Made by a program: the position numbers and the translations under genes. From Fodinibius salinus (lineage in GTDB: Bacteria > Bacteroidota > Rhodothermia > Balneolales > Balneolaceae), in contig NZ_VNHY01000002.1 in the NCBI RefSeq assembly GCF_008124865.1, forward strand, positions 310,001-374,000: a stretch of 64,000 nt of DNA. Reading direction: 5' to 3'. Every line of letters begins with the position of its first letter. Positions within the stretch are counted from its first letter, which is position 1. Below, one piece after another: positions 1,460 to 51,497 of this stretch. The notes below the pieces were generated by a model. It worked only from the letters and a program-made list of their open reading frames with translations. It made no database searches and was not told the DNA's origin.

Positions 1460-3526
1460 ATGGAACATTCTCACAAACATACTGGTCACGCTGATGCTCA
1501 CAATAAAGAGCATCAGCATAATCACGATCATAAAGATCACAACCACAAAGAACATTCCCACTCCGGCGGACATGCTGCCCATCATGCCCAAATGGCCAAG
1601 GATTTCCTGAAGCGGTTCTGGATCTCCATTGCACTTACGATCCCTGTTCTGATCCTGTCACCTATGATACAGGAATTCTTGGGACTGGGAGATACGCTGA
1701 GATTTGCCGGAGACAGCTATATATCCTTTGTTTTATCAAGCATCGTGTTCTTTTATGGCGGCTGGCCGTTCCTGAAAGGTCTCTACGATGAGCTGAAAGA
1801 TCGCCAGCCGGGAATGATGACCCTGATCGGCATCGCCATTACAGCCGCATATGTGTATAGCACATTGGTAGTCTTTGCCGTCGAAGGACAGGTCTTTTTC
1901 TGGGAGCTTGCTACACTGGTCGATATCATGCTGATTGGCCATTACATCGAAATGAAATCCGTGATGAGTGCTTCCCGGGCCCTGGAGGAACTAGCTAAAC
2001 TCATGCCCTCGGAAGCGCATATCGTACAGGATGACGGATCAACGAAAGATGTTCCACTTGAAGAATTGCAAAAAGGAATCAAGGTACTGGTCAAGCCGGG
2101 CGAAAAGATCCCAGCTGATGGTTTAGTTCTTGATGGAAAAAGCTCGGTCAATGAATCACTGATGACAGGCGAATCCAAACCGGTATCCAAAAAGCAGGGG
2201 GATGAAGTTATAGGCGGCTCCATCAACGGCGAAGGATCACTGACCATAGAAGTAAACCGGACCGGCGAAGATTCGTTTCTCTCACAGGTGATCAATCTGG
2301 TACGGCAGGCACAAGAAAGTAAATCCCGAACACAGGACTTGGCCAACAGAGCCGCATTCTGGCTCACGATTGTGGCATTGGGAGCCGGTGCCCTCACCTT
2401 CTTTGCATGGACTTTCTTTACCACTGAAGACTTTGTGTTCGCCTTGGAGCGCACGGTCACCGTAATGGTTATCGCCTGTCCACACGCATTGGGATTGGCC
2501 GTACCTCTAGTTGTAGCCGTTTCCACCAGTCTGGCCGCCCAAAACGGATTCCTAATTCGTAACCGTACCGCTTTTGAGGAGGCCCGAAACCTTGGGGCTA
2601 TTATCTTTGACAAAACAGGTACGCTCACGCACGGGGAATTTGGTGTAACCGATATAATAACATTTAACGGATATGAGGATAAAGATGAACTTCTCAAACT
2701 GGCGGCATCGCTGGAACAAAACTCCGAGCATCCTATCGCCACAGGCATTGTAAAAGCTACCGACGGCCTGATGAAAGTAGAAGAGTTTAATTCAATCACC
2801 GGCAAAGGTATTGAAGGCCGTGTAGATGGCAAACAGATTAAAGTGGTAAGTCCGGGATACCTGCGCGAAAACAACATTGAACTTCCGACACAGCAGTACG
2901 AACAGCTTTCAGGACAGGGTAAAACCGTGGTATTTGTAATGATTGACGACCAGCTGCAGGGAGCTATTGCCCTGGGTGACAGTATCAGGGAAGATTCAAA
3001 GAAGGCCATCCAAAGCCTGCAGTCAATGGGTATACAGTGCATCATGCTTACCGGGGATAACAAGCAAACCGCCGCTTATGTAGCCAAAGAGCTGGGACTG
3101 GATGATTTCTTTGCTGAGGTCCTTCCGGAAGAGAAAGCGGCCAAAGTCAAAGAGGTGCAGGGGCGCGGGCTCAAAGTAGCCATGACCGGCGACGGGGTCA
3201 ACGATGCTCCCGCTCTTGCCCAGGCTGACGTGGGTATTGCCATTGGGGCTGGTTCAGATGTAGCTGTAGAGACAGGAGATATTATCCTGACTCAGAGCAA
3301 CCCCAAAGATGTGGCTTCCCTGATTGGGCTGGCAAAAGCTACCTATAAGAAAATGGTGCAAAACCTGTGGTGGGCGACGGGATACAACGCTTTTGCAATA
3401 CCACTAGCCGCTGGCGTCTTGTATACCTACGGGATTATTTTGAGCCCCGCCATGGGTGCTGTCCTGATGTCACTAAGTACGGTAATTGTGGCTATCAATG
3501 CGCGTTTCCTTAAAATTGAACGCTAA
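1460..3526 (+). CDS. copB: Copper-translocating P1B-type ATPase, CopB type
   Basis: The 688-residue protein starts with about 45 residues very rich in His (HSHKHTGH, HNHDHKDHNH), a metal-binding tail found in CopB pumps. The channel motif is C340-P-H (ACPHALGL) rather than CPC, the hallmark of the P1B-3 group. D384 in DKTGTLT is the phosphorylated Asp; a TGE actuator loop (MTGESKPV), an HP motif (SEHPIA) and GDGVNDAP follow. It should export Cu (or Ag) across the inner membrane. The start at 1460 has AAGGAT seven bases upstream. It heads an operon with the PII-like gene 13 bp downstream and is preceded by the direct-repeat promoter at 1364-1397. Confidence 0.95.
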   Translation: MEHSHKHTGHADAHNKEHQHNHDHKDHNHKEHSHSGGHAAHHAQMAKDFLKRFWISIALTIPVLILSPMIQEFLGLGDTLRFAGDSYISFVLSSIVFFYGGWPFLKGLYDELKDRQPGMMTLIGIAITAAYVYSTLVVFAVEGQVFFWELATLVDIMLIGHYIEMKSVMSASRALEELAKLMPSEAHIVQDDGSTKDVPLEELQKGIKVLVKPGEKIPADGLVLDGKSSVNESLMTGESKPVSKKQGDEVIGGSINGEGSLTIEVNRTGEDSFLSQVINLVRQAQESKSRTQDLANRAAFWLTIVALGAGALTFFAWTFFTTEDFVFALERTVTVMVIACPHALGLAVPLVVAVSTSLAAQNGFLIRNRTAFEEARNLGAIIFDKTGTLTHGEFGVTDIITFNGYEDKDELLKLAASLEQNSEHPIATGIVKATDGLMKVEEFNSITGKGIEGRVDGKQIKVVSPGYLRENNIELPTQQYEQLSGQGKTVVFVMIDDQLQGAIALGDSIREDSKKAIQSLQSMGIQCIMLTGDNKQTAAYVAKELGLDDFFAEVLPEEKAAKVKEVQGRGLKVAMTGDGVNDAPALAQADVGIAIGAGSDVAVETGDIILTQSNPKDVASLIGLAKATYKKMVQNLWWATGYNAFAIPLAAGVLYTYGIILSPAMGAVLMSLSTVIVAINARFLKIER

Positions 3527-3539
3527 ATCCGAAGTTATT

Positions 3540-3881
3540 ATGAAACTTGTCAAAGCTTATATCCGACCAAAGCTCCTGGAAGATGTCTATAGGGCGCTGC
3601 GTAACGAAGGGTATTGTTGTATGACTGTTTTTGAAGGCGAAGGAACCGGCCGGTACAGTGATCCTGACCATCAGCATGGTTCCCTGAACTTCCCTGCCAT
3701 GCATACTCATGTAGTAAAAATTGAAATTGCAGTGGAATCGGAAGATGTAAATCCTGTTATCGACATTATTACAGAACATGGGAAAACAGGTCACAAAGGA
3801 GACGGTATTGTCTTTGTTTGCCCCATAGAAAAGGTGACAAGAATACGAGACGGAGAAGAAGGAGCTTCTGTTCTCAAATAA
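3540..3881 (+). CDS. PII-like signalling protein with His-rich T-loop
   Basis: A 113-residue PII (GlnB-like) fold: N-terminal MKLVKAYIRP, GxGxG-type turn, and the C-terminal GDGIVFVCPIEKVTRIRDGE that corresponds to the PII nucleotide site. The loop region around residues 41-57 carries H44, H46, H55 and H57 (DPDHQHG, AMHTH), which classical PII T-loops lack; this suggests metal sensing. A PII subgroup encoded beside CusABC-type metal-efflux genes (PII-NG) is known, and this gene lies 13 bp after copB. I chose ATG 3540 because the family starts here; an upstream in-frame ATG (3486) lies inside copB. Function (gating or sensing for the pump) is inferred. Confidence 0.85.
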   Translation: MKLVKAYIRPKLLEDVYRALRNEGYCCMTVFEGEGTGRYSDPDHQHGSLNFPAMHTHVVKIEIAVESEDVNPVIDIITEHGKTGHKGDGIVFVCPIEKVTRIRDGEEGASVLK

Positions 3882-4892: not shown

Positions 4893-5108
4893 ATGGACTG
4901 GCTAAACGCTCTTAACACCCATTGGGCCCCGGTGCTCTGGATCCTGCTAGCCGGGGTCTCTCTTTTGATCTGGTACTTTGCACTGCGCGGAAAGCACCGG
5001 CTTGAAATCCGAAATGCGGCCATCGAAGTTCACCGGAGACGCCTACAAACCGGTGAGATATCGAAAGAAGAGTTTAACCGACTCAAACAATCACTCTCTA
5101 CCAACTGA
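4893..5108 (+). CDS. SHOCT domain mini membrane protein
   Basis: 71 residues: one N-terminal membrane helix (APVLWILLAGVSLLIWYFAL) and a C-terminal SHOCT motif (RRLQTGEISKEEFNRLKQSL). SHOCT is a short helical module of unknown function, probably oligomerising. Four such proteins occur in this window (also 5795, 13810, 21446), all in metal operons. It follows the Met-rich gene by two bases and precedes a DUF2933-like gene. Confidence 0.85.
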   Translation: MDWLNALNTHWAPVLWILLAGVSLLIWYFALRGKHRLEIRNAAIEVHRRRLQTGEISKEEFNRLKQSLSTN

Positions 5109-5794: not shown

Positions 5795-6010
5795 ATGTTC
5801 TACGATCATCATTTTATTGGAATGCATTGGATATGGTGGATCATCGTAGTCGGTATTATCCTTTTAGTGGTTTTCAATGTCATTCCGTATCGACCCAACA
5901 CAGAACTGGAAGAGAATGCCATGGAAATATTAAAGAAAAGGTTTGCCCGTGGGGAAATTGAACGGGAAGAGTTTGAGGAACGGAAAAAAATCTTAAAACA
6001 AAACAATTAA
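5795..6010 (+). CDS. SHOCT domain mini membrane protein
   Basis: 71 residues with one membrane helix (WIWWIIVVGIILLVVFNVIP) and a C-terminal SHOCT motif (ILKKRFARGEIEREEFEERK). The leading residues MFYDHHFIGMHW contain three His. It starts 59 bp after the direct-repeat promoter and is followed after 17 bp by the GAPDH gene. Confidence 0.85.
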   Translation: MFYDHHFIGMHWIWWIIVVGIILLVVFNVIPYRPNTELEENAMEILKKRFARGEIEREEFEERKKILKQNN

Positions 6011-6027: not shown

Positions 6028-7059
6028 ATGAAGAAAGTAAAAGTTGCCGTCAATGGCTATGGAGTAATCGGGAAAAGAGTAGCTGAAGCTGTGGACCTAC
6101 AGGATGATATGGAGCTTATTGGTATTGGAGATGTAGCTGCCGACTGGAGAATTCAATCAGCTGAATCAAAAGGATACTCCATCTATGCCAATACCGAAGA
6201 AGGGCGAAAATTGATGACCAGTAAAAACATCAAGATAGCTGGCGATCTTGATGATCTGCTTGATAGTGCCGATGCAGTTGTAGACTGTGCTCCAAAAAAG
6301 TTTGGTGCTCAAAATGCCGAAAAATATAAACTTGCGAGCGTGAAATATATCGTACAAGGTGGTGAAAAGCATCAAACTACTGGACATTCTTTCAGTGCCG
6401 AATCGAACTATGCAACCGCCTTGGGAAAGGAAGCAACCCGTGTGGTATCCTGTAATACCACCTCCATCATACGAACACTTACAGCCTTGAAACGTGCGGA
6501 TTTACTACAAAAAGCTCGTGGTACTTTGCTCCGTCGAGCCACTGATCCGTGGGAAAGCCACAAAAACGGCATCATGAATACACTGGTGCCAGAGCCGGAA
6601 ATTCCCAGCCATCAAGGTCCTGATGCCCAAAGCGTTGATCCCGAACTGGATGTAGTAACCGCCGCTGTAAAAGTGCCGCAAACACTTTCCCATCTGCATT
6701 ACTGGACCGTTCAACTGAAGCGTGAAACAAATAAAGAAGAAATCCTCGAAGCGTTCGGTACTTCAACACGAACCGCCTTTATACGTATGGATGACGAGTT
6801 ATCAGCGAATAATACGGTAAAGGAATTAATGCTGGATATTGGCCGCCCTCATGGGGATATGTATGAGGTGGCCATATGGGAAGATATGTTGAAAGTGGAG
6901 GGAGACGAGCTTTACTACGCCTACCTGGTTGATAACCAGGCCATTGTAATTCCCGAAACCATCGATGCCATTCGAGCACTGACCGGCATAGAATCCAATC
7001 CGGAAAAATCGATAGACAAAACAAATCGATCACTGGGTATTACCCAACGGTTTATTTAA
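6028..7059 (+). CDS. Type II (archaeal-type) glyceraldehyde-3-phosphate dehydrogenase
   Basis: The 343-residue protein opens with a Rossmann NAD(P) site (VAVNGYGVIGKRVAEA) and has the catalytic Cys at C142 in VVSCNTTS, the signature of the archaeal type II enzyme rather than bacterial GapA. LRRATDPWESHKNGI and IPSHQGPDA are further type II blocks. It would oxidise glyceraldehyde-3-phosphate to 1,3-bisphosphoglycerate in the cytoplasm. It is unlikely to be the main glycolytic enzyme, lying 17 bp after a SHOCT gene in a metal-regulated stretch; a thiol enzyme poisoned by Cu or Hg would be a sensible one to duplicate. GAPDHs in arsenic clusters are usually type I with arsJ, which is absent here. 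Confidence 0.9.
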   Translation: MKKVKVAVNGYGVIGKRVAEAVDLQDDMELIGIGDVAADWRIQSAESKGYSIYANTEEGRKLMTSKNIKIAGDLDDLLDSADAVVDCAPKKFGAQNAEKYKLASVKYIVQGGEKHQTTGHSFSAESNYATALGKEATRVVSCNTTSIIRTLTALKRADLLQKARGTLLRRATDPWESHKNGIMNTLVPEPEIPSHQGPDAQSVDPELDVVTAAVKVPQTLSHLHYWTVQLKRETNKEEILEAFGTSTRTAFIRMDDELSANNTVKELMLDIGRPHGDMYEVAIWEDMLKVEGDELYYAYLVDNQAIVIPETIDAIRALTGIESNPEKSIDKTNRSLGITQRFI

Positions 7060-7097
7060 CCAATGAACATACATTCCAAATTAAGAGGAATTGTAAC

Positions 7098-7763
7098 ATG
7101 GAACGAGGAATTGAACATTCAGGAGCCTGGGTTATAGCGCTTTTTGTTATCGTTATTGCTTCCTGGCTGTTATACAAGTATATGGCGCCCAAAACCTGGC
7201 GGGAGTGGGCGGGAGCCGGGTTAATTCAAGGCTTTATCATTGCATTGTATGCAGAGATGTATGGCTTTCCCCTTACTATTTATTTGATGGCACGATTCCT
7301 GGGAATTGACAGCGGGTCTGTGGATGCCAATCTCTGGTCCACATTATTAGGTATGGGGCAGACCGGCATGATGATCTCAATGATTCTGGGTTATATCCTG
7401 CTTTTTATTGGCTTCGGAATTTTTATCCAGGGCTGGCGTCAGCTTTACCATGCCAAGCAGGAAAACAGGCTGGCAACCGACGGATTATACAGCCTGGTCA
7501 GACATCCCCAATACACCGGATTATTTATCGGGCTTTTTGGAGAGGGGGTCATTCACTGGCCGACTATATTTTCCGTAGGCCTGTTCCCGGTTATCGTTTT
7601 CGCTTATGTCCTGCTTGCCCGAAGGGAAGAGAAGAAAGTAATTGAAGAGTTTGGTGAAGAGTATCTCCAGTACAAACAAGACGTGCCGGCCTTCCTTCCG
7701 GCGAAAGGCAACTGGAAACAGTTTATTCAACGGTCCGGTAATACTCTTGATAATACGGACTAA
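7098..7763 (+). CDS. Isoprenylcysteine carboxyl methyltransferase-like (ICMT/PEMT family) membrane protein
   Basis: 221 residues with about five membrane helices. The C-terminal half has the family signature: GLYSLVRHPQYTGLF (S-adenosylmethionine-binding region), then RREEKKVIEEFGEEYLQYK and a final PAFLP. These enzymes methylate membrane or lipid substrates; the bacterial substrates are mostly unknown. Bacterial members often accompany heavy-metal genes, as here, 38 bp after the GAPDH gene. Confidence 0.82.
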   Translation: MERGIEHSGAWVIALFVIVIASWLLYKYMAPKTWREWAGAGLIQGFIIALYAEMYGFPLTIYLMARFLGIDSGSVDANLWSTLLGMGQTGMMISMILGYILLFIGFGIFIQGWRQLYHAKQENRLATDGLYSLVRHPQYTGLFIGLFGEGVIHWPTIFSVGLFPVIVFAYVLLARREEKKVIEEFGEEYLQYKQDVPAFLPAKGNWKQFIQRSGNTLDNTD

Positions 7764-7802: not shown

Positions 7803-8660
7803 ATGGCACCGATCACAGTCACCAAGGCATCCGGAGAAAAAGAACTATTTGATGAAAATAAACTTCGCCGCTCACTTAAAAGCGCAGGTGCTGACCAACA
7901 AACTATTGATCGAATTGCAAATGCAATCAGCGATATCCTGTATGATGGTATTTCCACAAAAAAGATCTACAAAGAAGCATTTCATAAGCTTCGGCAACAT
8001 TCAAACCGTTCCGCCGGGCGATATAAATTAAAGGAAGCATTATTGGAACTGGGACCTACTGGTTACCCCTTTGAAAAGTTTGTTGGCGAACTACTTAAGA
8101 GGTTAGGGTACCAAACTGAAACAGGAATTGTTGTGGAGGGCAACTGTGTATCCCATGAAATAGATGTGATTGCTGAGAAGGATAACAAGCATTTCATGAT
8201 AGAATGCAAATTTCACAACCGAAAAGGGCATAAATGTAATGTGAAAGTCCCTCTTTACATTCAATCGCGATTCAAGGATGTGGAAAGAAACTGGAGTAGC
8301 CAGCCCGGTCACGAAGACAAGCAACACCAAGGATGGGTGGTAACCAATACTCGATTTACCAAGGATTCCCTGCAGTATGGCAATTGTATCGGTCTTAAAC
8401 TATTAAGCTGGGACTATCCACAAGATAAGGGACTTAAAGACCTTATTAGCAAAGTGAATCTCCATCCTATTACTTGTCTTTCAACCCTTAGTAAAAAAGA
8501 TAAACAGCGACTGCTTGAACAAGATATCGTTTTCTGCCAGCAGCTATGTGAAGATGAAAAGGTCTTAAACAACATGGGCTTGGACAACCGCAAGAAGAAC
8601 CAAGTGATTAAGGAAGCTCAGGATATCTGTAATACCAATTCAAATGAAGTAACCAAATGA
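7803..8660 (+). CDS. ATP-cone domain fused to an Mrr-like PD-(D/E)XK nuclease domain
   Basis: Residues 1-65 form an ATP-cone (ITVTKASGEKELFDENKLRR ... YDGISTKKIYKEAF), the nucleotide-sensing module of ribonucleotide reductases and NrdR. Residues 85-230 resemble Mrr restriction endonucleases, with EID (D121) and E134-C-K136 forming a PD-(D/E)XK site. About 50 helical residues follow. A nuclease whose activity answers to ATP or dATP is the obvious reading, but neither target nor activity is shown. No methylase or specificity subunit lies nearby. It overlaps the next gene by four bases (ATGA). Confidence 0.88.
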   Translation: MAPITVTKASGEKELFDENKLRRSLKSAGADQQTIDRIANAISDILYDGISTKKIYKEAFHKLRQHSNRSAGRYKLKEALLELGPTGYPFEKFVGELLKRLGYQTETGIVVEGNCVSHEIDVIAEKDNKHFMIECKFHNRKGHKCNVKVPLYIQSRFKDVERNWSSQPGHEDKQHQGWVVTNTRFTKDSLQYGNCIGLKLLSWDYPQDKGLKDLISKVNLHPITCLSTLSKKDKQRLLEQDIVFCQQLCEDEKVLNNMGLDNRKKNQVIKEAQDICNTNSNEVTK

Positions 8661-8989
8661 AAGATTCAGCTGATAAACACGCCGAAAGAGATCCTAAATT
8701 AATCATCTACTGCAAGAAATGGTGTGAATACCTCCAGGAATTAGTCAATTTACTTCGGGCCAAACAACAAACATTTACGTTTATCGATTTACGCTTTGAT
8801 ACCAAGCAAGCAAAAGCGTTGATATCTGAACTGGGAAATCCCTTGATTCTACCTGTACTCTTCTTAAATGGAACTTATCATGAAAAACCCCCAATTTCGA
8901 AAGTCAAAAGTATGTTAGATCGATATCAATGGCGAAAACAGGTTGACCAAAAGTATTATGGTACCCTACCAGTCCAAGACCATCAGTAA
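8657..8989 (+). CDS. Glutaredoxin-like protein, monothiol-type site
   Basis: 110 residues with a thioredoxin-like layout: strand LIIYCKKWCEYL, helix, strand TFTFIDLRFD and cis-Pro strand LPVLFLNGTY. Aligned to glutaredoxin CPYC, C23 is the nucleophile and the second Cys is Leu (CEYL), so it would be monothiol; C19 is an extra nearby Cys. It is cytoplasmic (no signal). It starts within the stop of the ATP-cone nuclease and ends 11 bp before the ATP-cone-glycoamylase, so the three are probably co-translated. Redox control of the partners is speculation. Confidence 0.72.
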   Translation: MKDSADKHAERDPKLIIYCKKWCEYLQELVNLLRAKQQTFTFIDLRFDTKQAKALISELGNPLILPVLFLNGTYHEKPPISKVKSMLDRYQWRKQVDQKYYGTLPVQDHQ

Positions 8990-9000
8990 CCACCTTACCT

Positions 9001-10530
9001 ATGGCTACGATAAACGTCACAAAATCTTCCGGAAAGCAGGAGCCTTTTGATGAAAGCAAGCTTCGCCGTATGCTAGTTGCTACCGGTGCTGATTCCAAAG
9101 TGGTTAAGCAAATAATTAGCTCTATAAAAGGAAAACTCTATGAGGGCATTTCTACCCAGAGGATAACCGAAGAAGTGTTTCGGCAGCTCAGCAAAAAATC
9201 AGAAAATATTCGATTTGACAAGGCACCTCCAGAACACGAACTACCTCCCGACTTTGATAGTAAAAGATTGGATAGGCTACAGCACCACGCTTTCGATTAT
9301 TTCTTGCATGAAACCAATCCGAATAACGGGCTGGTAGCAGACAATTCACAATTGGGGGCACCCGCCAGTATAGCATCGGTCGGTTTTGCAATGGGGGCCT
9401 ATGTGGTTGGCGTAAATCGCGAATGGATGTCACGAACCGACGCAATACAGCGTACCCTTGCAGTCCTGCATTTTTTCTGGAATAGCGAGCAGAGCACAGC
9501 CCCGGACGCGACCGGCTATAAGGGGTTCTTTTACCATTTTCTTGACATGAAGACGGGTAAACGCGTGGGCAAGTGTGAACTATCAACAGTCGATACCGGT
9601 ATCCTGCTGGCTGGCATGCTTGCGGCCGCTGCCTTTTTTGATCGAGATAGTGAAGACGAACAAGAAATACGTACCCTGACCGATGCCATTTACCATCGCG
9701 TAAATTGGAAATGGGCTTGCAATGGTGAGCCCACAATCACCCATGGCTGGACACCAGAGAATGGCTTCCTGCCATACCGATGGGAAGGATACGATGAAGC
9801 CGCACTTCTGTACATTCTTGCACTCGGTTCTCCGTCCCAACCACTACCGAAGGAAAGCTACGAAGCCTGGACCTCCACCTATGAATGGAAGAAGATATAT
9901 AGCAATGAATTTATTTACGGAGGTCCGCTGTTCATCCACCATTATTCCTACATCTGGATCGATTTTCGTGGGATCCAGGATGCTTTTATGCAGGAAAAAG
10001 GAATCGACTATTTTGAAAACAGCCGCCGGGCTACCTATGTCCAGCAAGAATATGCCATACGAAATCCTTTGGATTTTAAAGGCTACGGAGAAAATTTCTG
10101 GGGAATAACAGCCAGTGATGGTCCTGGTTGGACCACGAAAAAAGTAAACGGTATTGAGCGATCCTTCTTTGGTTATGTGGCACGTGGTGCTCCCTACGGA
10201 CCCGATGACGGCACGGTTGCCCCGTGGGCTGTAGTTGCCTCTCTACCCTTCACTCCGGAAATTGTACTACCAACAATTCAACATTTTCAAGACGTATATC
10301 CCCAGGTGACAGGAAAATATTGTCTCAGGTGCAGTTTCAACCTGAGCTATCCGAATGGGCAAAATGCCAATGATGGGTGGACCTCTTCCTACCATTATGG
10401 TATCAATCTTGGTCCTGTTATCTTGATGATAGAAAACCATCGATCAGATTTGATTTGGAAGCTCATGCGTGACTCCAAATACATTGTGACCGGTTTAAAA
10501 AAAGCAGGATTTATAAACGGATGGCTATGA
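9001..10530 (+). CDS. ATP-cone domain fused to a glycoamylase-family (COG5368-like) domain
   Basis: Residues 1-65 are a second ATP-cone (INVTKSSGKQEPFDESKLRR ... YEGISTQRITEEVF), clearly homologous to that of the nuclease 1.2 kb upstream. Residues 80-505 match the bacterial glycoamylase family, including GFLPYRWEGYDEAALLYI, GGPLFIHHYSYIWIDFRGIQ, YFENSRRATYVQQ, GITASDGPG and DDGTVAPWA. Members have an (alpha/alpha)6 barrel and include beta-1,2-glucan enzymes. There is no signal peptide, so it should act in the cytoplasm, unlike most relatives. An ATP-cone on a glycoside hydrolase is highly unusual; allosteric control of glucan turnover by nucleotide level is inferred. Confidence 0.9.
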   Translation: MATINVTKSSGKQEPFDESKLRRMLVATGADSKVVKQIISSIKGKLYEGISTQRITEEVFRQLSKKSENIRFDKAPPEHELPPDFDSKRLDRLQHHAFDYFLHETNPNNGLVADNSQLGAPASIASVGFAMGAYVVGVNREWMSRTDAIQRTLAVLHFFWNSEQSTAPDATGYKGFFYHFLDMKTGKRVGKCELSTVDTGILLAGMLAAAAFFDRDSEDEQEIRTLTDAIYHRVNWKWACNGEPTITHGWTPENGFLPYRWEGYDEAALLYILALGSPSQPLPKESYEAWTSTYEWKKIYSNEFIYGGPLFIHHYSYIWIDFRGIQDAFMQEKGIDYFENSRRATYVQQEYAIRNPLDFKGYGENFWGITASDGPGWTTKKVNGIERSFFGYVARGAPYGPDDGTVAPWAVVASLPFTPEIVLPTIQHFQDVYPQVTGKYCLRCSFNLSYPNGQNANDGWTSSYHYGINLGPVILMIENHRSDLIWKLMRDSKYIVTGLKKAGFINGWL

Positions 10531-10584: not shown

Positions 10585-11493
10585 ATGATGAATAGAATGA
10601 ACATTAGATTTACTCTGATAACAATAAGTCTCCTTGTTTTTCTATCCTCATGTCAAATGGGAAGATCTGACTATATGAGTGAAGAACAGCGGAAAGAATT
10701 AGAAACCGCTTACGATTCCTTGCAGTCTAATTACAAAATGCTCCTGGCAAACTACGAAGGTGCAACGGACACTCTGCCTTCTGACATACAATCTCTCTAC
10801 AGCCAGATGCAAAATATGCACAGTGAGATGGATGTTAGCCACCGGCAAATGATGGCTGGCAACATGGGCCGTCATATGCAGGGCGATAACATGATGGCCG
10901 AAGGAATGGGTAGGCATATGCAGGGGCACATGACCGGTGAGTGGTATAGCCAGATGATGGGCATGCACGAGCAGATGGCGCGGCTGCACCAACAAATGGG
11001 ACAGCAAAATATGGCCCGGATGAACCGGCGCCTCTCCGAAGAGTATGGCAAGATGATAAAGATGATTCCCGACTTAGATGAACCTACCGAAATACCGTTT
11101 AATGAAGAGGGAGATCCAACGTTACTAAATGGCGAAAGTCTGTTTTCACAAAACTGTGCTTCCTGCCACGGAGGCAATGCCGAAGGGGTATCAGGCGCTT
11201 TCCCTCCACTACTCAATTCAGAATGGATCACCGGTGACAAATCTACTCCTATTCGTATTTTGCTTCACGGCCTGCAAGGCGAAATTGAAGTGCAAGGGCA
11301 AACATATCAGGGCATTATGCCTTCGTTCAAGGCCCGGTTAAGCGCTGCAGAAATCGCCTCCCTACTCACCTATCTTCGGGAAAAAAGTGACGGCGATTAT
11401 CCAACCGTTTCCCAACAAGATGTGGTAGAGGTTGCAAATTCATTCAGTAACCGGACGACTCCCTGGAGTGCGTCAGAACTAAATAAAAATTAA
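10585..11493 (+). CDS. Met/His-rich lipoprotein with C-terminal cytochrome c domain
   Basis: A lipoprotein signal peptide ends at FLSSC (C23). Residues 70-150 are rich in Met and His (GNMGRHMQG, GMGRHMQGHM), like copper-binding tails. The C-terminal domain is a class I cytochrome c with haem motif C191-A-S-C-H195 and likely axial M244 (GIMPSF). It is anchored in the periplasm and may carry electrons for Cu(I) oxidation or to a terminal acceptor. A good ribosome site (GAAGGGAG) precedes the ATG. The patatin gene begins 13 bp after its stop. Confidence 0.88.
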   Translation: MMNRMNIRFTLITISLLVFLSSCQMGRSDYMSEEQRKELETAYDSLQSNYKMLLANYEGATDTLPSDIQSLYSQMQNMHSEMDVSHRQMMAGNMGRHMQGDNMMAEGMGRHMQGHMTGEWYSQMMGMHEQMARLHQQMGQQNMARMNRRLSEEYGKMIKMIPDLDEPTEIPFNEEGDPTLLNGESLFSQNCASCHGGNAEGVSGAFPPLLNSEWITGDKSTPIRILLHGLQGEIEVQGQTYQGIMPSFKARLSAAEIASLLTYLREKSDGDYPTVSQQDVVEVANSFSNRTTPWSASELNKN

Positions 11494-13809: not shown

Positions 13810-14073
13810 ATGTGGTTTGATACGATATGGAATACCCCCCTGTTTTGGTGGCTCCTATTGACCGTTTTCGGTGCCGGATTCATCATACTGATCCTTTTAT
13901 GGCGGCGCACCAAGTCCGATCCGGTAAAAGAACAGATGGATCATTTTTGCCGGTGCTATGCTCGGGGCGAAATAAGCCGGGAAGATTTTGAAGAGCTAAA
14001 AAAAGATTTACAGGTATTTAAAAAACAGAAAATCAAACTAAAGAGGAAGCGAAAACCAATAAAGCATGTGTAA
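13810..14073 (+). CDS. SHOCT domain mini membrane protein
   Basis: 87 residues: one membrane helix (FWWLLLTVFGAGFIILILLW), a SHOCT motif (CRCYARGEISREDFEELKKD) and a very basic tail (KKQKIKLKRKRKPIKHV) that the other SHOCT copies lack. GAAAGGAGG lies 6-14 bases before the ATG. It opens a three-gene set mirroring 4893-5628. Confidence 0.84.
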   Translation: MWFDTIWNTPLFWWLLLTVFGAGFIILILLWRRTKSDPVKEQMDHFCRCYARGEISREDFEELKKDLQVFKKQKIKLKRKRKPIKHV

Positions 14074-42629: not shown

Positions 42630-44369
42630 ATGGATAGCCTTAAAAAACGACTTGGCAGTCAGTGGGGAAATACTGCCATAATATCGGTTTTTATAGTATT
42701 CGCTCTGTTTATCATTGTAGGAACACATTATGGAACCAAAACACTCTCTGCTGTCCGGGCGTATGTAGGCGCTGAAGGCCAATGGACAAAAGCTCAAAAA
42801 GAAGCAACGACATTGCTTATCCGATACAATGATAATGAGCAACCGAAATTATATGAACAGTTCCAGCAAGAGCTGGAATTGCATAAAGCATTTAAAAGAA
42901 GTCGTCAAACGCTGACCTCACAAGCTCCGAATTACGATTTGGCATTCAGGGGATTTGAAACCGCTGATATCCATTCCGATGATATTAAACTGTTGATATG
43001 GCTTGCTCAATTCCATGCTAATATCTCATATCTTCAAAAGGCTTTTGAGGTCTGGAAACAGGGAGACCGGCACATTGCAAAATTAGACACCTTGGGGCGT
43101 ACCTTGCACGAAACCATACAAGAAGAACCTACTAATCATGAAAGGAGAACTCAGTTAATTCAGGATATTTATGAATTGGATCAAACGCTAACCAAGCTGG
43201 AAAACTCCTTTTCAGCAAACATGGCAGAAGGGGCCCGGGAAATTCGGAGTGTACTTTTCTGGTCTATTGCGGGACTGGGAATAATTATCATTCTTACAGG
43301 TTATATCATAATGCGCAACCTATTTAGCAATATAAATATCCTGAACCAAGAATTGGTAGAAAGCGAAACCAAATTCCGCAGTGTCCTTCAAAACTCCCGG
43401 GACGTTGTTTACCAAATAGACTTTGACTCGGGTAACTATGAGTATATGAGTCCTGCCGTTAAAGATATGCTTGGCTATTCACCGGATCAGATATTGGAGC
43501 AGGGGACTGAATTTGTATTGGATCGCATCCATCCGGAAGACCTTAAAAGGATGGACCAAGAAATTGAGGAGATGAAAGGCAAGGGGGTTGAAAATCATTT
43601 CGCCGGAGAAACAGAGTTTCGCATCAAAACAAAAGATGGTAACTATATCTGGGTTAATAATAAACGATCGCTGGTTAAAGACGATAATGGTAATCCTACT
43701 GCAATCGTCGGTACCGTTCGGGATATATCGACCCGCAAAAAACATGAGGTGCAAACACAAAAATCCCTTGAAGAAAAACAAACATTATTAGAAGAAGTTC
43801 ACCACCGTGTAAAAAATAACCTCGGGGTTGTGTTGAGTCTGCTTGAGTTACAGAAAAAAGAAGCCGATAATGAATTAAAATCCCTTCTTCAGGAAACCCA
43901 GTCCCGGATCCATTCTATTGGCATGATCCATGAAAAGTTATATCAAACAGAAACGCTTTCTGATATAGACATCAAGGAATACATCGAAGATTTTGCCAAC
44001 ATGATTGCAAGCTCTTTTAATTCAGAACAAAAAGACATTACCATTACCAAAGATGTTCAAAGCTTTAATCTAGAGACAACCAAAGCCGTGCCAGTTGGAC
44101 TTATACTAAACGAGTTGCTCAATAATGCTTATCAACATGGATTTTCGGACACTAAATCCGGAGAGTTGCGTATTACCTTTAAAAAAGAAGATGAAGAAAT
44201 CCTATTCCGTGTCGCTGATAACGGCAGGGGACTACCCGACGGGTTTAGTCTTTCAAACCAACAGTCCCTGGGCATGACACTAATCCAAAGACTAACCAAG
44301 CAGTTGAAAGGAGAGTTAGAGGTATTTTCGGAAGATGAATGGACGATCTTTCAAGTTACTTTCCCATAA
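42630..44369 (+). CDS. Membrane sensor histidine kinase, PAS plus HisKA_2 type
   Basis: 579 residues: helix at about 13-32, a 175-residue extracytoplasmic helical sensor, helix at about 208-228, PAS domain (about 245-370: SRDVVYQIDFDSGNYEYMSP ... GTVRDIS), then HisKA_2 with H391-H392 in EEVHHRVKNNL and an ATPase domain (NELLNNAYQHGF, DNGRGLPDGF). Kinases with the HHRVKNNL box normally signal to separate response regulators, often in light or general-stress pathways. No regulator is adjacent. Confidence 0.88.
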   Translation: MDSLKKRLGSQWGNTAIISVFIVFALFIIVGTHYGTKTLSAVRAYVGAEGQWTKAQKEATTLLIRYNDNEQPKLYEQFQQELELHKAFKRSRQTLTSQAPNYDLAFRGFETADIHSDDIKLLIWLAQFHANISYLQKAFEVWKQGDRHIAKLDTLGRTLHETIQEEPTNHERRTQLIQDIYELDQTLTKLENSFSANMAEGAREIRSVLFWSIAGLGIIIILTGYIIMRNLFSNINILNQELVESETKFRSVLQNSRDVVYQIDFDSGNYEYMSPAVKDMLGYSPDQILEQGTEFVLDRIHPEDLKRMDQEIEEMKGKGVENHFAGETEFRIKTKDGNYIWVNNKRSLVKDDNGNPTAIVGTVRDISTRKKHEVQTQKSLEEKQTLLEEVHHRVKNNLGVVLSLLELQKKEADNELKSLLQETQSRIHSIGMIHEKLYQTETLSDIDIKEYIEDFANMIASSFNSEQKDITITKDVQSFNLETTKAVPVGLILNELLNNAYQHGFSDTKSGELRITFKKEDEEILFRVADNGRGLPDGFSLSNQQSLGMTLIQRLTKQLKGELEVFSEDEWTIFQVTFP

Positions 44370-44535
44370 GTGATAAATACGGGCCATTTTCTTTTTTCTA
44401 TATTTCTTACATATTAAGTTAGGTAAAAAGGTTTTGTTATTTGTCTAGAAAGACCTATCAAAAGTTAAGCCTCGAGTGTTAAATCAATTGCTATCGATCT
44501 AACTTTATTTAAAGCCCATATTTTAAAAGGTGGCC

Positions 44536-46806
44536 ATGGATAATCATATCTCCCATACCGAACACGAAGAGGAAAGAGTTAGGGAACTGCTGCGATACAA
44601 TATCCTTGATACTCCTGACGAAAAAGAGTTTGACGACCTCACCAAGATGGCCGCCTATCTTTGCGATGTTAAATATGCTCACATTAATTTTCTGGATCAC
44701 AAGCGGCAGTGGACAAAATCCTGTCACGGGTGGGACGTAAGAGAAATGCCCCGGGATGAAAGCATCTGTAACCATACCATCCAGCGGGATAAATATATGG
44801 TTGTCAATGACCTAAGCGAGGACCCTCACTTTAAGGATATGGACTATGTAAAAGATAAGAGTATCCGATTTTATGCCGGTGTTATATTAAAAAATAATGG
44901 GTATAAGCTGGGAACCTTATGCGTTTTTGGACCGGAACCCAAACAGCTTTCCGATAATCAGTTGGAATCATTACAAATTCTGGGAAATGAAGTAGAGGCT
45001 CAGCTGGAGCTTCGTCTCAAAAGGGAAGAACTGATTGAGGAACATAAACGATTGAAAAAGAGTGCAATATTTCTTCAGAATTCGACGGACATCAGAATGA
45101 TCCTGGATCCGGAGACATTACGTATTCTCGAAGTCAATAAAGAGGTAGAAGAACTGCTCGGCTACGAGACCGGAGAGATCCAAGATACTACCTTGGCTAA
45201 TCACCTCCGACAGGAAAAATTCATAACCGAGCTTAAGGAATGGGCCAACAACAAATCAGCACAACAGTTTTCCTCAGAAACGATTATTAGCACTCGGGCA
45301 AATGATCCCTTATGGTTCCAGTTAACTGTTACCGAAGAATCGAATCGATATTATGTAACCGGGCGCAATATCAGCCGACGCAAACAATCTGAGCAGCGCT
45401 TCCGCAAACAGGCAAAGCTTACCGAAAACATTATCCAAAACCTTCCCGGCATTTTCTTCATCATGAACAAAGAGGGTCGTATTAAAAGATGGAATAATAA
45501 TTTGGTTGACGTTACAAACCGCGGGCCCGAAGAAACCCAAAACTTGCCCTATACAAACTTTATCGCTCCCAAACATCACGATAAAGCCGAAAAAGCATTG
45601 CATAAAGTTTTTGAAGATGGACATATCCGTACTGAACTCGACTTCTTGTCCAAAGATCAGAAGGTTACTCCCATTCTTTTAGTCGGATTCCGTTATCAGA
45701 CTAATGACAATACCTATGTCACAGGTATAGGTATTGATATCAGTGATAAAAAACAGGCCCTTGAAGAGCTGGAGCAAAAAGAGCAAAAACTGAAAGAAGC
45801 TCTGCGTATCGGTAAAATAGGTGGGTGGACCTGGGAAATACCTGATGATGAGCTCATTTGGTCAGATGAAGTTTACCACATTTTGGGGCTTGATAAAGAG
45901 GAAACGAAACCCACTGTCGAATTATACTTTGACCTATTGCCGGAAAGTGAGGTTGAAAGGTTAGAAAAACTTGTGGAAGGAATAAGAGAAGGCAGAGGCA
46001 TGAAAGATATTGAGCACCAAATGCTGAAATCGGATGGCTCAGTTATTTATGTTCACCAGCGCGGTGAAACACATTATGACAGTGAGGGAAATGCGATTCG
46101 GGTTGACGGCATTTTACAGGACGTAACGGCTCGCAAAAAAAATGAAGAAAAAATAAAAAAAGCTCTCAAGGAGAAGGAAGTCCTGTTATCCGAGGTGCAT
46201 CACCGAGTTAAAAATAACCTCGCAATTATTAACAGCCTGTTGCAGCTCGAAATGTTTAATATTGAGAATGGAAAACTTAAAGACATCCTTTCCAAAAGCC
46301 AGATGCGTATCCACTCAATGGCTCTTATCCACGAGACACTGTACTCTTGGGAAAGTTTCGCAAATATTTCATTCGGAAGTTATATTAAAAAACTGACCAC
46401 CTCACTATGCGATACCTTCCCGGAAAAGTCACAAAATGTAGATATTAATTTGCATACAGATGATGTAAGCCTCAATATCAACCAGGCAATACCCTGTGCA
46501 TTGGTGATTAATGAACTTGTCACCAATTCATTTAACCATGCATTCCCCGATTCTGAAACCGGAACTGTATCAATTGATTTACAAGGAAACGATCACGCCA
46601 TTGACTTGACGATATCCGATAATGGGATTGGGTTTGACGTTCCGAATGCCTTGGACAATACCAATACACTGGGACTCACTCTCGTAAAAAAGCTTATCAG
46701 TCAAATCGATGGGGACGTTGACATCAATGCCCAAAACGGCACCTCCTTTCATATCACTTTTACCAAAACACAATCCGGCGGATCCAGTGCCAGTTATTTT
46801 CCATAG
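44536..46806 (+). CDS. Soluble GAF-PAS-PAS-PAS HisKA_2 histidine kinase
   Basis: 756 residues, no membrane helix: GAF domain (about 20-165, RESICNHTIQ-type block and GTLCVFG), three PAS domains (about 175-285, 300-410, 425-540), HisKA_2 (SEVHHRVKNNLAIINSLLQL) and ATPase (NELVTNSFNHAF, DNGIGFDV). ATG 44536 is preceded by AAAAGGTGG; a GTG at 44530 is less likely. The GAF resembles that of the kinase at 49000, so both may see the same cytoplasmic signal. Confidence 0.88.
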   Translation: MDNHISHTEHEEERVRELLRYNILDTPDEKEFDDLTKMAAYLCDVKYAHINFLDHKRQWTKSCHGWDVREMPRDESICNHTIQRDKYMVVNDLSEDPHFKDMDYVKDKSIRFYAGVILKNNGYKLGTLCVFGPEPKQLSDNQLESLQILGNEVEAQLELRLKREELIEEHKRLKKSAIFLQNSTDIRMILDPETLRILEVNKEVEELLGYETGEIQDTTLANHLRQEKFITELKEWANNKSAQQFSSETIISTRANDPLWFQLTVTEESNRYYVTGRNISRRKQSEQRFRKQAKLTENIIQNLPGIFFIMNKEGRIKRWNNNLVDVTNRGPEETQNLPYTNFIAPKHHDKAEKALHKVFEDGHIRTELDFLSKDQKVTPILLVGFRYQTNDNTYVTGIGIDISDKKQALEELEQKEQKLKEALRIGKIGGWTWEIPDDELIWSDEVYHILGLDKEETKPTVELYFDLLPESEVERLEKLVEGIREGRGMKDIEHQMLKSDGSVIYVHQRGETHYDSEGNAIRVDGILQDVTARKKNEEKIKKALKEKEVLLSEVHHRVKNNLAIINSLLQLEMFNIENGKLKDILSKSQMRIHSMALIHETLYSWESFANISFGSYIKKLTTSLCDTFPEKSQNVDINLHTDDVSLNINQAIPCALVINELVTNSFNHAFPDSETGTVSIDLQGNDHAIDLTISDNGIGFDVPNALDNTNTLGLTLVKKLISQIDGDVDINAQNGTSFHITFTKTQSGGSSASYFP

Positions 46807-46878
46807 AAAATGGAACTGCAATTATATCACCCTAAATAACATTATGTAGAACAATAACCTTTAGTTAAGTTACAATTT

Positions 46879-47697
46879 ATGGCACATAACGTTGTTGAAA
46901 GAAATAATGTTACCATTATCGGAGAAGGTGAAATACCAATAGTATTTGCCCATGGCTTTGGGTGTGATCAAAACATGTGGCGTTTTATTACACCGGCATT
47001 AAAAGAGAATTTTAAAATTATTCTCTTCGATTATGTGGGTTCCGGTAATTCTGACATCAGCGCTTATAAAACTAATCGTTATTGCAGCCTCGAGGGGTAT
47101 GTACAGGATGTTTTAGATATTATTCATGCCTTGGACCTTGATGAAGTTATATTTGTGGGACATTCGGTAAGCTCCATAATTGGTGCACTAGCATCTATTG
47201 AAGAACCCCAAAAATTTGAACATCTGATTATGATTGGTCCTTCTCCATGCTATTTAAATGATCCGCCTGAATATTTTGGGGGGTTTGATCGTAGTACTAT
47301 TGAAGAGCTGCTGCAACTCATGGAAAAAAATTATATCGGCTGGGCGGAATTTTTCGCTCCTGAAATGATGAAGAATGAAGACAAACCTGAATTAACTGAG
47401 GAACTCGAGGAAAGTTTTTGCTCTACCGATCCAGTTATCGCTCATCAATTCGCCAAAACCACTTTTCTTGCTGATAACCGTGAAGATCTATCCGAAATAG
47501 AGGTACCGGTACTTATCATACAGTGCGAAGATGATTCCATAGCCCCGCTCCACGTTGGAAAATACGTGCATGCCCAAATTAACGAAAGCACCTTTGAGGT
47601 GCTTCCGACCAACGGCCACTGTCCACATATGACAGACCCTGAATTAACCATTGAGGCCATCGATAATTATCTGGAACCAAACTTAGCTACATCATGA
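46879..47697 (+). CDS. rsbQ: RsbQ-like alpha/beta hydrolase
   Basis: 272 residues that follow Bacillus RsbQ almost block by block: FAHGFGCDQNMW, ILFDYVGSGNSD, FVGHSVSSIIGALASI, MIGPSPCYLNDPPEYFGGF, NYIGWAEFFA, FCSTDPVIAHQFAK, GHCPHM. The triad falls at S96, D219 and H247, the same numbers as in RsbQ. RsbQ binds or makes a small ligand needed by the PAS domain of its partner phosphatase RsbP. Here the gene overlaps (ATGA) a PAS-histidine kinase instead. It belongs to the family that includes plant karrikin/strigolactone receptors. Confidence 0.93.
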   Translation: MAHNVVERNNVTIIGEGEIPIVFAHGFGCDQNMWRFITPALKENFKIILFDYVGSGNSDISAYKTNRYCSLEGYVQDVLDIIHALDLDEVIFVGHSVSSIIGALASIEEPQKFEHLIMIGPSPCYLNDPPEYFGGFDRSTIEELLQLMEKNYIGWAEFFAPEMMKNEDKPELTEELEESFCSTDPVIAHQFAKTTFLADNREDLSEIEVPVLIIQCEDDSIAPLHVGKYVHAQINESTFEVLPTNGHCPHMTDPELTIEAIDNYLEPNLATS

Positions 47698-48773
47698 GCC
47701 CTGTTAAAAATCAAATACCTTGTGGCTATCTGGAATTTAATGATGAAGGAACATTAACGCAGGTAAACAACCGGCTTTGTAGTATTTTAGGCTACAATAA
47801 TAAGCAATTAGCCAATAACCATATCGAGACTATCCTTTCATCAGGTGCTGAAATTTTTTATCAGACCCACCTGTTTCCCATGTTAAAAATGGAAAAGCAG
47901 GCAAATGAAATTTACTTAACCTTGCAATCAAAGGAGGGGAAACATATACCGGTGTTGATCAATGCCGATAGAACAGTAGAAAATAATGAGGCTATAAATC
48001 GCTGTATTGTTGTACAAATGGAGCGCCGCTCGGAATACGAAGACCGAATTTTGTATGACAAAATGAAAGCTCAAAAAAAGAGTGACAAAAAGGAAAAACT
48101 ACTGTCAATGATGTCGCATGAATTACGTAGTCCTTTAAACGCCATTCTCGGGATGGTCGATCTGCTATCCGAGGAGATAAATGGTGAAGCCCAGAGTGAT
48201 GAACGCAAGTATCTGGGCCTTATTAAAAACGCAGGGAAAGATCTGGCACGACTGGCGGATGACATTCTGAATTTTGCCAAGCTTGAATCGGGCTATTTTG
48301 AGGTAAACAAAGAAGTGGTACTCCTTGAAGAAGTGCTCATGAACTCGGTTATGATGACTATGCCTGATGCTGATGACAAAGGCATTGAACTAATCAGAAG
48401 TGAGAAAACTGAGCTTAAACTCTTGGCCGACAAAGACCGGCTCAAACAGGTAATCATAAACTTGTTAACGAATGCGGTCAAATACACTGAGCAAGGAGGT
48501 AAAGTTACCTTATCTACAGACAAAGAGGAGCAGTTTGCTAAAATACAAGTGAAAGATACCGGCATTGGAATCCCTTCTGACAAAATTGATCACATATTCC
48601 AGCCTTTTAACCAAATGGATAACAATAATTCAGGCTCAAGTGAAAGTGGATTTGGGCTGGGACTCCCAATCAGTAAAAAACTGGTTAATTTTATGGAAGG
48701 GGAGCTGACGGTGAGTAGTAAAGAAGGTGAAGGATCTATTTTTTCTGTCAAGATTCCACTGGCAGAAAATTAA
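47694..48773 (+). CDS. PAS-histidine kinase paired with RsbQ
   Basis: 359 residues: an N-terminal PAS domain (about 10-110, GYLEFNDEGTLTQVNNRL, ILGYNN), HisKA with H142 in MSHELRSPLNAI, N box (INLLTNAVKYT), G1 (DTGIGIPSD) and G2 (GFGLGLPISKKL). Its first four bases overlap the rsbQ stop. The PAS takes the place of the RsbP PAS, but the output is a kinase rather than a PP2C phosphatase. No membrane helix. There is no response regulator nearby. Confidence 0.9.
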   Translation: MSPVKNQIPCGYLEFNDEGTLTQVNNRLCSILGYNNKQLANNHIETILSSGAEIFYQTHLFPMLKMEKQANEIYLTLQSKEGKHIPVLINADRTVENNEAINRCIVVQMERRSEYEDRILYDKMKAQKKSDKKEKLLSMMSHELRSPLNAILGMVDLLSEEINGEAQSDERKYLGLIKNAGKDLARLADDILNFAKLESGYFEVNKEVVLLEEVLMNSVMMTMPDADDKGIELIRSEKTELKLLADKDRLKQVIINLLTNAVKYTEQGGKVTLSTDKEEQFAKIQVKDTGIGIPSDKIDHIFQPFNQMDNNNSGSSESGFGLGLPISKKLVNFMEGELTVSSKEGEGSIFSVKIPLAEN

Positions 48774-48999
48774 CGTATGTGAAATACCCTATGAAGTTAT
48801 GCCTGCGTTATTGTTTAATATGAAAACTACCCGTCCGTTTAACATGCCAAGGCCACGTCCTGAACAGGATAACAAAAAAGAATAAAATGACGAACCGGTA
48901 AGTCCTGTCTACGGATATGGCGGTTATCTTATAAAAGATTATGCCACTCAACAAGTTACTGGAAAGGTACATCAAAGATTGACTCGTAAACAATTTAAT

Positions 49000-50208
49000 C
49001 TAGGTATCAGGATTGTCAACCCTTGGCATAAGTAATCTTATCGAAAATGTTGTACCTTGGCTTTCGTTGCTCTCCGCTACGATATCGCCGTTTTGTTTTT
49101 CTACAAGTTGTCGAATATGATCCAGTCCTATACCAAAACTTTCTTCATCTGCAGTTCCTTTGGATTTTTCTAGGCGTTGCCCATTATTGAACGCTTGTTT
49201 TTGATCAGCGGACATACCTTTACCACTATCTTCAACACTAACATTCAAAATCTGCTTTTCCTCTTCCATCTTACGACTAAAATCAACCGTGATAGTTCCA
49301 CCTTCTGGAGTAAATTTCATGGCATTCCCAACCAAATTTCCGATAATCTGAGCCAAGGTCACAGAAAAGTCATGGGGAACACTTAACTCTTTATTAATGG
49401 AGCTTTTCACAGAAAAGTCATGTCCCTTTTGTTGGGCCAATGGACTATATAGTCGTTTAATTTTTTCAAATACTTGGGAAAGCGAGGTTTGGGTAAGGTT
49501 CTTTTCGCTGCCATCTTCGGCCAAGGCGGTATGTAACACCCCGTCAATTTCTTCAATAATGGCTTGTGCAGAATCCTTGATTTGCAATACGTCTTCCTCC
49601 AGACCCTCATCATGATCTCCATTTCCAAGTAAGAGATCAGCCATGCCAATAATACCGCTAATTGGACCTCGTACATCGTGATTCAGGTTCCGCAAGCTAT
49701 CCTTAAGTTCATCTAATTGTTCCGATAGCTGGAAAAATCTGCTTTCTCGTTCAATATGATCGACAACAAATTGCCCGAGGTTCCCCAACATTTGTTTTTG
49801 CTCGATGCTGATTTGCTTTGGTTCCATATCCAACACGCAGATAGACCCGATATTATATCCGTCAGAGGTCGTTAGTTGTACGCCGCAATAGTAACGGAAA
49901 TGGGGTTCCTCAGTAACGTAAATTCTATTTTGATATCGCTCGTTTTTACTAAGGTCGGGAATTTCATGGGTGAAATTTTGCTGGATCGTGTCCTCGCAAA
50001 TACTTTTCTCACGAGGAATAGCTTTTAAGCTATCCTTGGTACGCGCGATCGTCCACTGAGCATGGCTGTCAATAATATTGATTTCGCAAACCGGAGATTC
50101 GGTAATAAATTTTGCCAGCTCGACAAATGGCTGCAATTTTTTCTTTTGCTTACCAAAATCAATACCCAACTTAGCCAATTCTTGTAACCGACGTATTTCT
50201 TCTTCCAT
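49000..50208 (-). CDS. Soluble GAF-histidine kinase
   Basis: 402 residues: GAF domain (about 20-155, EKSICEDTIQQ, YYCGVQLTTSDGYNIGSICV), HisKA-like segment with H177 in LNHDVRGPISGI, and ATPase domain (GNLVGNAMKFT, DSGKGMSAD, FGIGLDHIRQ). GAF blocks resemble those at 44536. It is transcribed towards the PAS-kinase at 47694. Between 48774 and 49000 nothing certain is seen. Confidence 0.87.
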   Translation of the reverse strand: MEEEIRRLQELAKLGIDFGKQKKKLQPFVELAKFITESPVCEINIIDSHAQWTIARTKDSLKAIPREKSICEDTIQQNFTHEIPDLSKNERYQNRIYVTEEPHFRYYCGVQLTTSDGYNIGSICVLDMEPKQISIEQKQMLGNLGQFVVDHIERESRFFQLSEQLDELKDSLRNLNHDVRGPISGIIGMADLLLGNGDHDEGLEEDVLQIKDSAQAIIEEIDGVLHTALAEDGSEKNLTQTSLSQVFEKIKRLYSPLAQQKGHDFSVKSSINKELSVPHDFSVTLAQIIGNLVGNAMKFTPEGGTITVDFSRKMEEEKQILNVSVEDSGKGMSADQKQAFNNGQRLEKSKGTADEESFGIGLDHIRQLVEKQNGDIVAESNESQGTTFSIRLLMPRVDNPDT

Positions 50209-50633
50209 AACCTAAAACTAAACTTTTTATATGTAAGAATAGGGCACTCTAATAGTTTAGCAAATTTATCACTACGGAAAACTACATTTTATGTGTTAAT
50301 AAACTGCCAATCTATAGGTCTCTAATAACTTTATTTTTAAACTTGATTATAAAAGAAATTAGTTTAATGTCCAATGTTATAATGTTCAATATTAATAGTG
50401 TCTTGTGAAGCTAAGCTCCCAAGGGTGGCTCGTCCATACATTAATAAACCCTTGATTCGCAAAAAGGTTTTTTGTTAGAAATTAATTAGTCAAATCAAGG
50501 AAAGCTCATACAACCCGGTTAACAAAGTAGTTGGATATAACATTATTACCTATTTCATCCAAGCTATATCTTATCCGTACTCTTCTTTATTCGAGGACAC
50601 ATGCTTAGTTTAGCAGCTTGTGAAATTCCAAAC
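50209..50633. other. Gene-free AT-rich spacer
   Basis: 425 bp between two minus-strand kinase genes. No open frame, repeat or hairpin with terminator features stands out; it should contain the promoter of the GAF-kinase, but no box can be named. Confidence 0.6.
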
Positions 50634-51362: not shown

Positions 51363-51497
51363 TGGGGCAAACAGAAGATTAAAGATATATTCTTGCTTTG
51401 AACCTTTGTTATCTTTGTCAATATATATCGGTTTCTCATGGCCTATATATGCCTCACCAGTCTCGTATACCCGTTTTAGCAGATTAATATAGCCCTG

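Follow-up and report, generated by a model that had tools for sequence, protein, structure and literature searches.

Three adjoining genes in Fodinibius, encoding a nuclease (ORF1), a glutaredoxin-like protein (ORF2) and a glucanase (ORF3) and hereafter called the triad, constitute a genuine gene set at genus level; the families are known, and a single domain fusion, in shortened form, is new. Taken as a whole, the triad is in our judgement best explained as metabolic genes that a mobile copper/metal-resistance island carries as cargo, and not as a dedicated defence or sensory system, a reading which we hold with middling confidence. The comparisons described below establish the protein families, the synteny, the conserved catalytic residues, the single origin and truncation of the ATP-cone of ORF3, and the action of purifying selection.

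The three-gene locus and its distribution

The window, i.e. the whole stretch of 64,000 nucleotides from Fodinibius salinus that was analyzed, belongs to a genome of 2.86 Mb (G000); the named species closest to it are Fodinibius sediminis and F. salsisoli. The triad lies on its forward strand (ORF1 at 7803–8660, ORF2 at 8657–8989 and ORF3 at 9001–10530), with a 4-bp overlap (ATGA) between ORF1 and ORF2 and an 11-bp gap between ORF2 and ORF3; coordinates, strand, overlap and gap had been given correctly in the preliminary description. The features of the locus are as follows.

6028–7059, forward: type II (archaeal-type) GAPDH, island neighbour and recurrent cargo (NF003251, 455.6 bits, over cut-off)
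7098–7763, forward: PEMT/ICMT-family membrane methyltransferase, island neighbour and recurrent cargo (PF04191/PF04140 over cut-off; adjoins type II GAPDH elsewhere)
7803–8660, forward: ORF1, 285 aa, ATP-cone, PD-(D/E)XK Mrr-type nuclease and AF1548-like C-terminal domain (Pfam, 1Y88 match)
8657–8989, forward: ORF2, 110 aa, glutaredoxin-like thioredoxin-fold protein (PF00462, alignment of 14 homologues)
9001–9198, forward: ORF3 N-terminal truncated ATP-cone, aa 1–66, beta-hairpin and three helices (PF03477)
9199–9264, forward: ORF3 weakly constrained linker, aa 67–88, replacing cone helix 4 (dN, low pLDDT)
9265–10530, forward: ORF3 GH144 (PF10091) endo-beta-1,2-glucanase-type catalytic domain (291.9 bits, over cut-off; XcSGL match)
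10585–11493, forward: cytochrome c domain protein (PF00034, 50.2 bits)

The triad genes are not chance open reading frames, since intact homologues exist in Fodinibius genomes (at 64–88% for ORF1 in other members of the genus, and at 79–83% for ORF3 among seven copies, window included) and dN was far below dS in most comparisons. The cytochrome c domain gene directly follows ORF3 in seven of seven cone-GH144 loci (window included). Elsewhere in the window, a P-II-like protein (3486–3881, PF00543) lies directly 3' of a copper P-type ATPase, with a DUF302 protein next in line; several short membrane proteins of ~70–87 aa recur through the island (4893–5108, 5795–6010, 13810–14073) and end in a tail of the type GEI(S/E)(K/R)E(E/D)F..LK; and, judged from translations, a row of similar PAS/GAF-type histidine kinases is found 3' of efflux genes (42630–52805). 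A sigma-70 scan returned promoter-like sites no more numerous than in shuffled sequences.

Among 147 relatives, ORF1 was found in 65, in most of these without ORF2 and ORF3, and ORF2 in 13; cone-bearing ORF3 was present in six Fodinibius genomes as seven copies (window included). The triad is contiguous in the window genome, G001, G002, G003 and G007, and is interrupted in G011, where ORF1 and ORF2 are separated by three genes. The preliminary description had asked for the three-gene set in other genomes, and its recurrence in five other Fodinibius genomes, one of them with the inserted genes, disposes of the possibility that the three never co-occur elsewhere. Partial sets were also encountered: cone-ORF3 without ORF1 and ORF2 in a second island of G001 (G001:C21), ORF1 and ORF2 without ORF3 in G029, G032 and G053, and ORF2 without adjoining ORF1 in G060, G070, G083 and G091. 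Within the genus, G008 and G009 carry only ORF1, and G004, G005, G006 and G010 none of the three.

The cone-GH144 fusion was absent outside Fodinibius in the 147 relatives and in the plasmid matches checked, and a search of genome contigs returned it in two Fodinibius species only. One S. fredii plasmid match that seemingly reached ORF3 residue 2 turned out to be a 447-aa cone-less open reading frame.

Between species, the order of the triad is kept at dS ~0.4–1, which hints at some benefit of togetherness; the rest of the island is equally kept. The P-type ATPase, type II GAPDH, PEMT, cytochrome c, patatin and two-component pair genes are indeed conserved along with the triad, a pattern consistent with plain neighbours, i.e. 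unrelated cargo co-inherited in a syntenic Fodinibius island and devoid of joint function, in which the ORF3 cone would be a fusion accident kept for folding. This alternative, which we regard as a real if lesser possibility, gains from the finding that each gene also occurs without the others, so that the triad is not a fixed set, and from the unequal dS of neighbouring genes: between the window and G001 (L087), dS was 0.42 for the nuclease part of ORF1 and 1.03 for the ORF3 catalytic domain, a difference suggestive of recombination within the island. It is weakened by the ATGA overlap of ORF1 and ORF2, which is found in five genomes (the window, G007, G029, G032 and G053), and by the constraint on residues 1–66 of the ORF3 cone described below.

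Domain content of the three proteins

ORF1 comprises an ATP-cone of the four-helix type (aa ~5–88), a nuclease domain (aa ~87–197) and an AF1548-like C-terminal domain (aa 222–275), all scoring over the curated Pfam cut-offs (ATP-cone 31.6 vs 25.8 bits, Mrr_cat 32.7 vs 21.0, AF1548-like_C 37.4 vs 23.9), and thus has the same domain set as other AF1548-like/Mrr_cat nucleases with an N-terminal ATP-cone (PF03477, PF04471 and PF22357). It matches the AF1548 structure 1Y88 (E=4.5e-38), whose 199-residue chain aligns to ORF1 residues 93–276 only and therefore shows no cone. In AF1548, D38, E51 and K53 are the predicted catalytic triad (PMC1821046); they correspond to ORF1 D121, E134 and K136, assuming that chain index and native numbering differ by 13 residues. 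Residues E91, D121, E134 and K136 (E134-C-K136) are invariant in 55 of 55 homologues, bearing out the earlier choice of D121 and E134 as nuclease residues. By its domains and predicted catalytic residues, ORF1 is an AF1548-like PD-(D/E)XK nuclease. Its cone fits the four-helix ATP-cone, with a hairpin Lys, a helix-3 Thr and a basic helix 4 (R73-Y74), and conservation among the 55 homologues is high at K8 (55), T52 (52), Y56 (55), R73 (51) and Y74 (55); the adenine-contacting position (E14) is Glu in 34 of them.

ORF2 scored 21.8 bits against Glutaredoxin (PF00462), just under the cut-off of 22.9, and its nearest solved structures are Grx3 and mycoredoxin (E 0.006–0.009). Similarity to glutaredoxin 3 and mycoredoxin (TIGR02200) extends over the fold and the cis-Pro (ILP in ORF2), whereas ORF2 remains below the family cut-offs and differs at the active site: its motif, IIYC-KxW-C-(D/E)YL, holds a CxxxC and no CxxC. 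The 14 aligned homologues share IYC-(K/Q)-x-W-C-x-Y-(L/M) and the cis-Pro, with C-x-x-L/M at the CxxC/CxxS site, such that the usual resolving Cys is gone and a new invariant Cys stands four residues before the catalytic one. The label monothiol glutaredoxin-like thus applies in the CxxC sense only, given this second Cys. A search for ORF2 homologues on plasmids returned none at E 1e-3. A similar CxxxC spacing is known from copper-binding Sco proteins. ORF2 (8657–8989) is a thioredoxin-fold-like protein with CxxxC within a copper island and might be a metal-binding variant.

ORF3 was originally termed a glycoamylase; the PF10091 domain behind that name is present, while GH144 beta-1,2-glucanase is the better designation. 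The nearest relative of known structure is XcSGL (8XUL, E=6.8e-117), a GH144 endo-beta-1,2-glucanase with assigned catalytic residue roles and a signal peptide (PMC12102758), and the same catalytic domain is found in CpSGL (5GZK). E266 and D198 are invariant in the ORF3 alignment; E266 is predicted to be the general acid (XcSGL E239), and D198 is probably the base (at the position of CpSGL E142, as mapped via 4gl3/3eu8). In contrast to XcSGL, ORF3 has no signal peptide and carries a truncated ATP-cone. Its nearest cone-less homologues (73% in G022, 72% on a Polaromonas plasmid, 69% in G085) begin at the catalytic domain, and no signal peptide was seen in those sequences of cone-less relatives (58–73%) that were read. 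A periplasmic role was considered for ORF3 and is not favoured, as neither ORF3 nor its nearest cone-less relatives carry a signal peptide.

The ORF3 cone is clearly recognizable (30.7 bits; residues 4–65, profile positions 1–69 of 88) and, as had been proposed, homologous to that of ORF1, both scoring over the Pfam cut-off and being alignable over residues 1–66, where the consensus of GH cones and the island nuclease cones are 59–60% identical. The GH144 cones form one clade (support 100/98), and a branch with support 90/89 separates them and the Balneolaceae nuclease cones from the remaining cones; the AU test did not distinguish between topologies with and without the GH cones branching inside the Balneolaceae nuclease cones (p 0.26). 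As judged from these alignments and trees, ORF3 acquired its cone a single time, from a nuclease of the Balneolaceae. For residues 1–66, dN/dS was mostly well below 1 and dN was 0.05–0.18, in most pairs about double the value for the catalytic domain. The linker had a much higher dN in most pairs (0.1–0.76), exceeding both the cone and the catalytic domain. Purifying selection on the cone piece indicates that it does something. AlphaFold models of ORF1 and ORF3 were unusable for fold searches because of a mean pLDDT of 44; the weak ORF3 model shows three helices followed by coil.

The preliminary description proposed that one ATP/dATP signal, acting through both cones, governs both DNA cleavage and glucan metabolism, possibly with ORF2 supplying a redox input. 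Homologous cones do occur on adjoining genes in six genomes, and both share with the cones of ribonucleotide reductase and NrdR the hairpin Lys (K8), the Glu position E14 and the helix-3 Thr (T52), E14 and T52 being kept in the island cones aligned. However, the ORF3 alignment stops before helix 4, which bears the phosphate-binding Lys and is replaced by the variable linker; in E. coli NrdA this helix provides K91, contacting the phosphates, and F87 of the second ATP site (PMC11447812). Moreover, Tyr56, invariant in the nuclease cones and located at the H59 position of the reductase/NrdR cones, is Thr in all GH cones, and the copy in G001:C21 has no cone-nuclease beside it. Because helix 4 and the invariant Tyr are missing, a full ATP/dATP switch in ORF3 appears doubtful, and we consider common control of both enzymes by a single signal distinctly unlikely.

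Metal-island context and recurrent partners

Among 55 annotated ORF1-family loci, the next same-strand gene encodes a beta-CASP RNase (RMMBL domain) in 28, often with a 4-bp overlap, a count that does not represent independent events, as the loci come from related genomes. ORF2 follows in eight loci (window included), another same-strand gene in ten and an opposite-strand gene in eight. The RNase is nearest to Cas14 (type VII; 355.9 bits, cut-off 800) and aCPSF1, below both NCBIfam cut-offs. The full run of cone-nuclease, RNase, thymidine/AMP-phosphorylase-like enzyme and PRPP synthetase was found in G011, in G001:C6 and on a Criblamydia and a Pontibacter plasmid, and in G011 the last three lie within the triad, between ORF1 and ORF2. 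The phosphorylase scores over the PRK04350 cut-off and under that for AMP phosphorylase (NCBIfam); in proteobacterial plasmid loci without the cone-nuclease, it is found near type II GAPDH, PPK2, P-type ATPases, PRPP synthetase or universal stress proteins. Cone-nucleases with RNase, phosphorylase and PRPP-synthetase neighbours recur in at least two phyla. The earlier view that no such system has been described holds for the triad itself, of which the open-licence papers searched contain no description, and has to be narrowed in the light of this arrangement. The partner enzyme families suggest a role in nucleic-acid breakdown and ribose/nucleotide salvage. The window departs from the usual order, ORF1 being followed there by the glutaredoxin-like gene in place of the RNase; no beta-CASP RNase match was obtained in the window genome (in a search without a positive control for that genome), so that the salvage route would be incomplete there.

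Cone-less relatives of ORF3 are found in the metal islands of both Pseudomonadota and Chlamydiota, where their neighbours include phosphoglucomutase, phosphoketolase, acetate kinase, PRPP synthetase, type II GAPDH and metal-resistance genes: the first three on Polaromonas and Variovorax plasmids, type II GAPDH on a Methylophaga plasmid, and PRPP synthetase/phosphorylase on Sinorhizobium pSinB. The plasmid of Criblamydia carries the cone-nuclease run at most 8 kb from a cone-less GH144 gene, providing a second nuclease-GH144 linkage, in another phylum.

Further associations were observed among the metal islands. Type II GAPDH, in several loci adjoining an ICMT/PEMT-like methyltransferase, recurs in those of Balneolaceae, Paracoccus, Acidovorax and Methylophaga (window 6028–7763 and loci L093–L095, L101, L177, L183 and L184). 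In L173, L175, L180 and L184, genes for metal resistance or mercury are accompanied by phosphoketolase together with acetate kinase, phosphoglucomutase or PRPP synthetase, and on plasmids these sets occur with GH144 or the phosphorylase. The open-licence literature searched holds no description of this phosphoketolase linkage on plasmids.

The suggestion of a stress or defence module of the metal island stands as regards island cargo, the recurrent neighbours of the triad families being RNase, nucleotide-salvage, sugar-phosphate and metal genes, and is unsupported as regards defence: PADLOC called no system at the triad, giving weak partial PDDEXK matches for ORF1 and none for ORF2 or ORF3, and searches of phages and viral contigs for triad homologues returned nothing convincing. 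An anti-phage abortive-infection module with a nuclease effector gated by nucleotide level is highly improbable, since the ORF1 family lives in metal/metabolic islands without adjoining defence genes, no phage homologue was found and a viral scan yielded no confirmed one, even though defence systems do include PD-(D/E)XK effectors that bear sensor domains, the PADLOC matches over the ORF1 nuclease part were to CARF-PDDEXK and PDC-S02 models, and the RNase partner found elsewhere comes nearest to type VII Cas14.

Proposed role of the triad

The enzyme activities, cone ligands, joint regulation and physiological role that we infer for the triad as island cargo would be as follows. ORF1 would be an ATP-cone-gated nuclease of the AF1548 family whose ancestral job was nucleic-acid breakdown for ribose/nucleotide salvage, in partnership with the beta-CASP RNase, the AMP/thymidine-phosphorylase-like enzyme and PRPP synthetase, and its cone most likely keeps it inactive until the ATP/dATP balance shifts under stress. 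ORF2, a small CxxxC thioredoxin-fold protein, would be translated with ORF1, yet not tied to it, and probably serves thiol or metal (Cu) handling of the island; the choice between a thiol and a copper role is a guess. ORF3 would be a cytosolic GH144 glucanase, formerly cone-less in such islands, in front of which the opening ~66 codons of a nuclease cone from Balneolaceae were presumably placed, once, in a Fodinibius ancestor. Owing to the loss of helix 4, a full ATP/dATP switch is less likely for this piece than a role in assembly or docking, or weak nucleotide binding at one site.

A broader and rather speculative possibility, which we rate as fairly unlikely, is that metal islands carry a mobile energy/nucleotide-rescue module scavenging nucleic acid and glucan when metals halt respiration, and that the shortened cone makes the Fodinibius glucanase the first nucleotide-sensing glycoside hydrolase. 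Its members would be the cone-gated nuclease, beta-CASP RNase, NMP phosphorylase, PRPP synthetase, phosphoketolase/acetate kinase, type II GAPDH, PPK2 and cytosolic GH144. The movement of central-carbon and salvage enzymes with metal resistance is not described in the open-licence literature searched.

Most known regulatory ATP-cones belong to ribonucleotide reductases and NrdR. A cone on a salvage-operon nuclease and a shortened cone on a glucanase would allow a direct test of the minimal nucleotide-sensing cone, and the finding that central-carbon and nucleotide-salvage enzymes travel with metal resistance in at least three phyla offers a testable idea as to how these islands may benefit their hosts.
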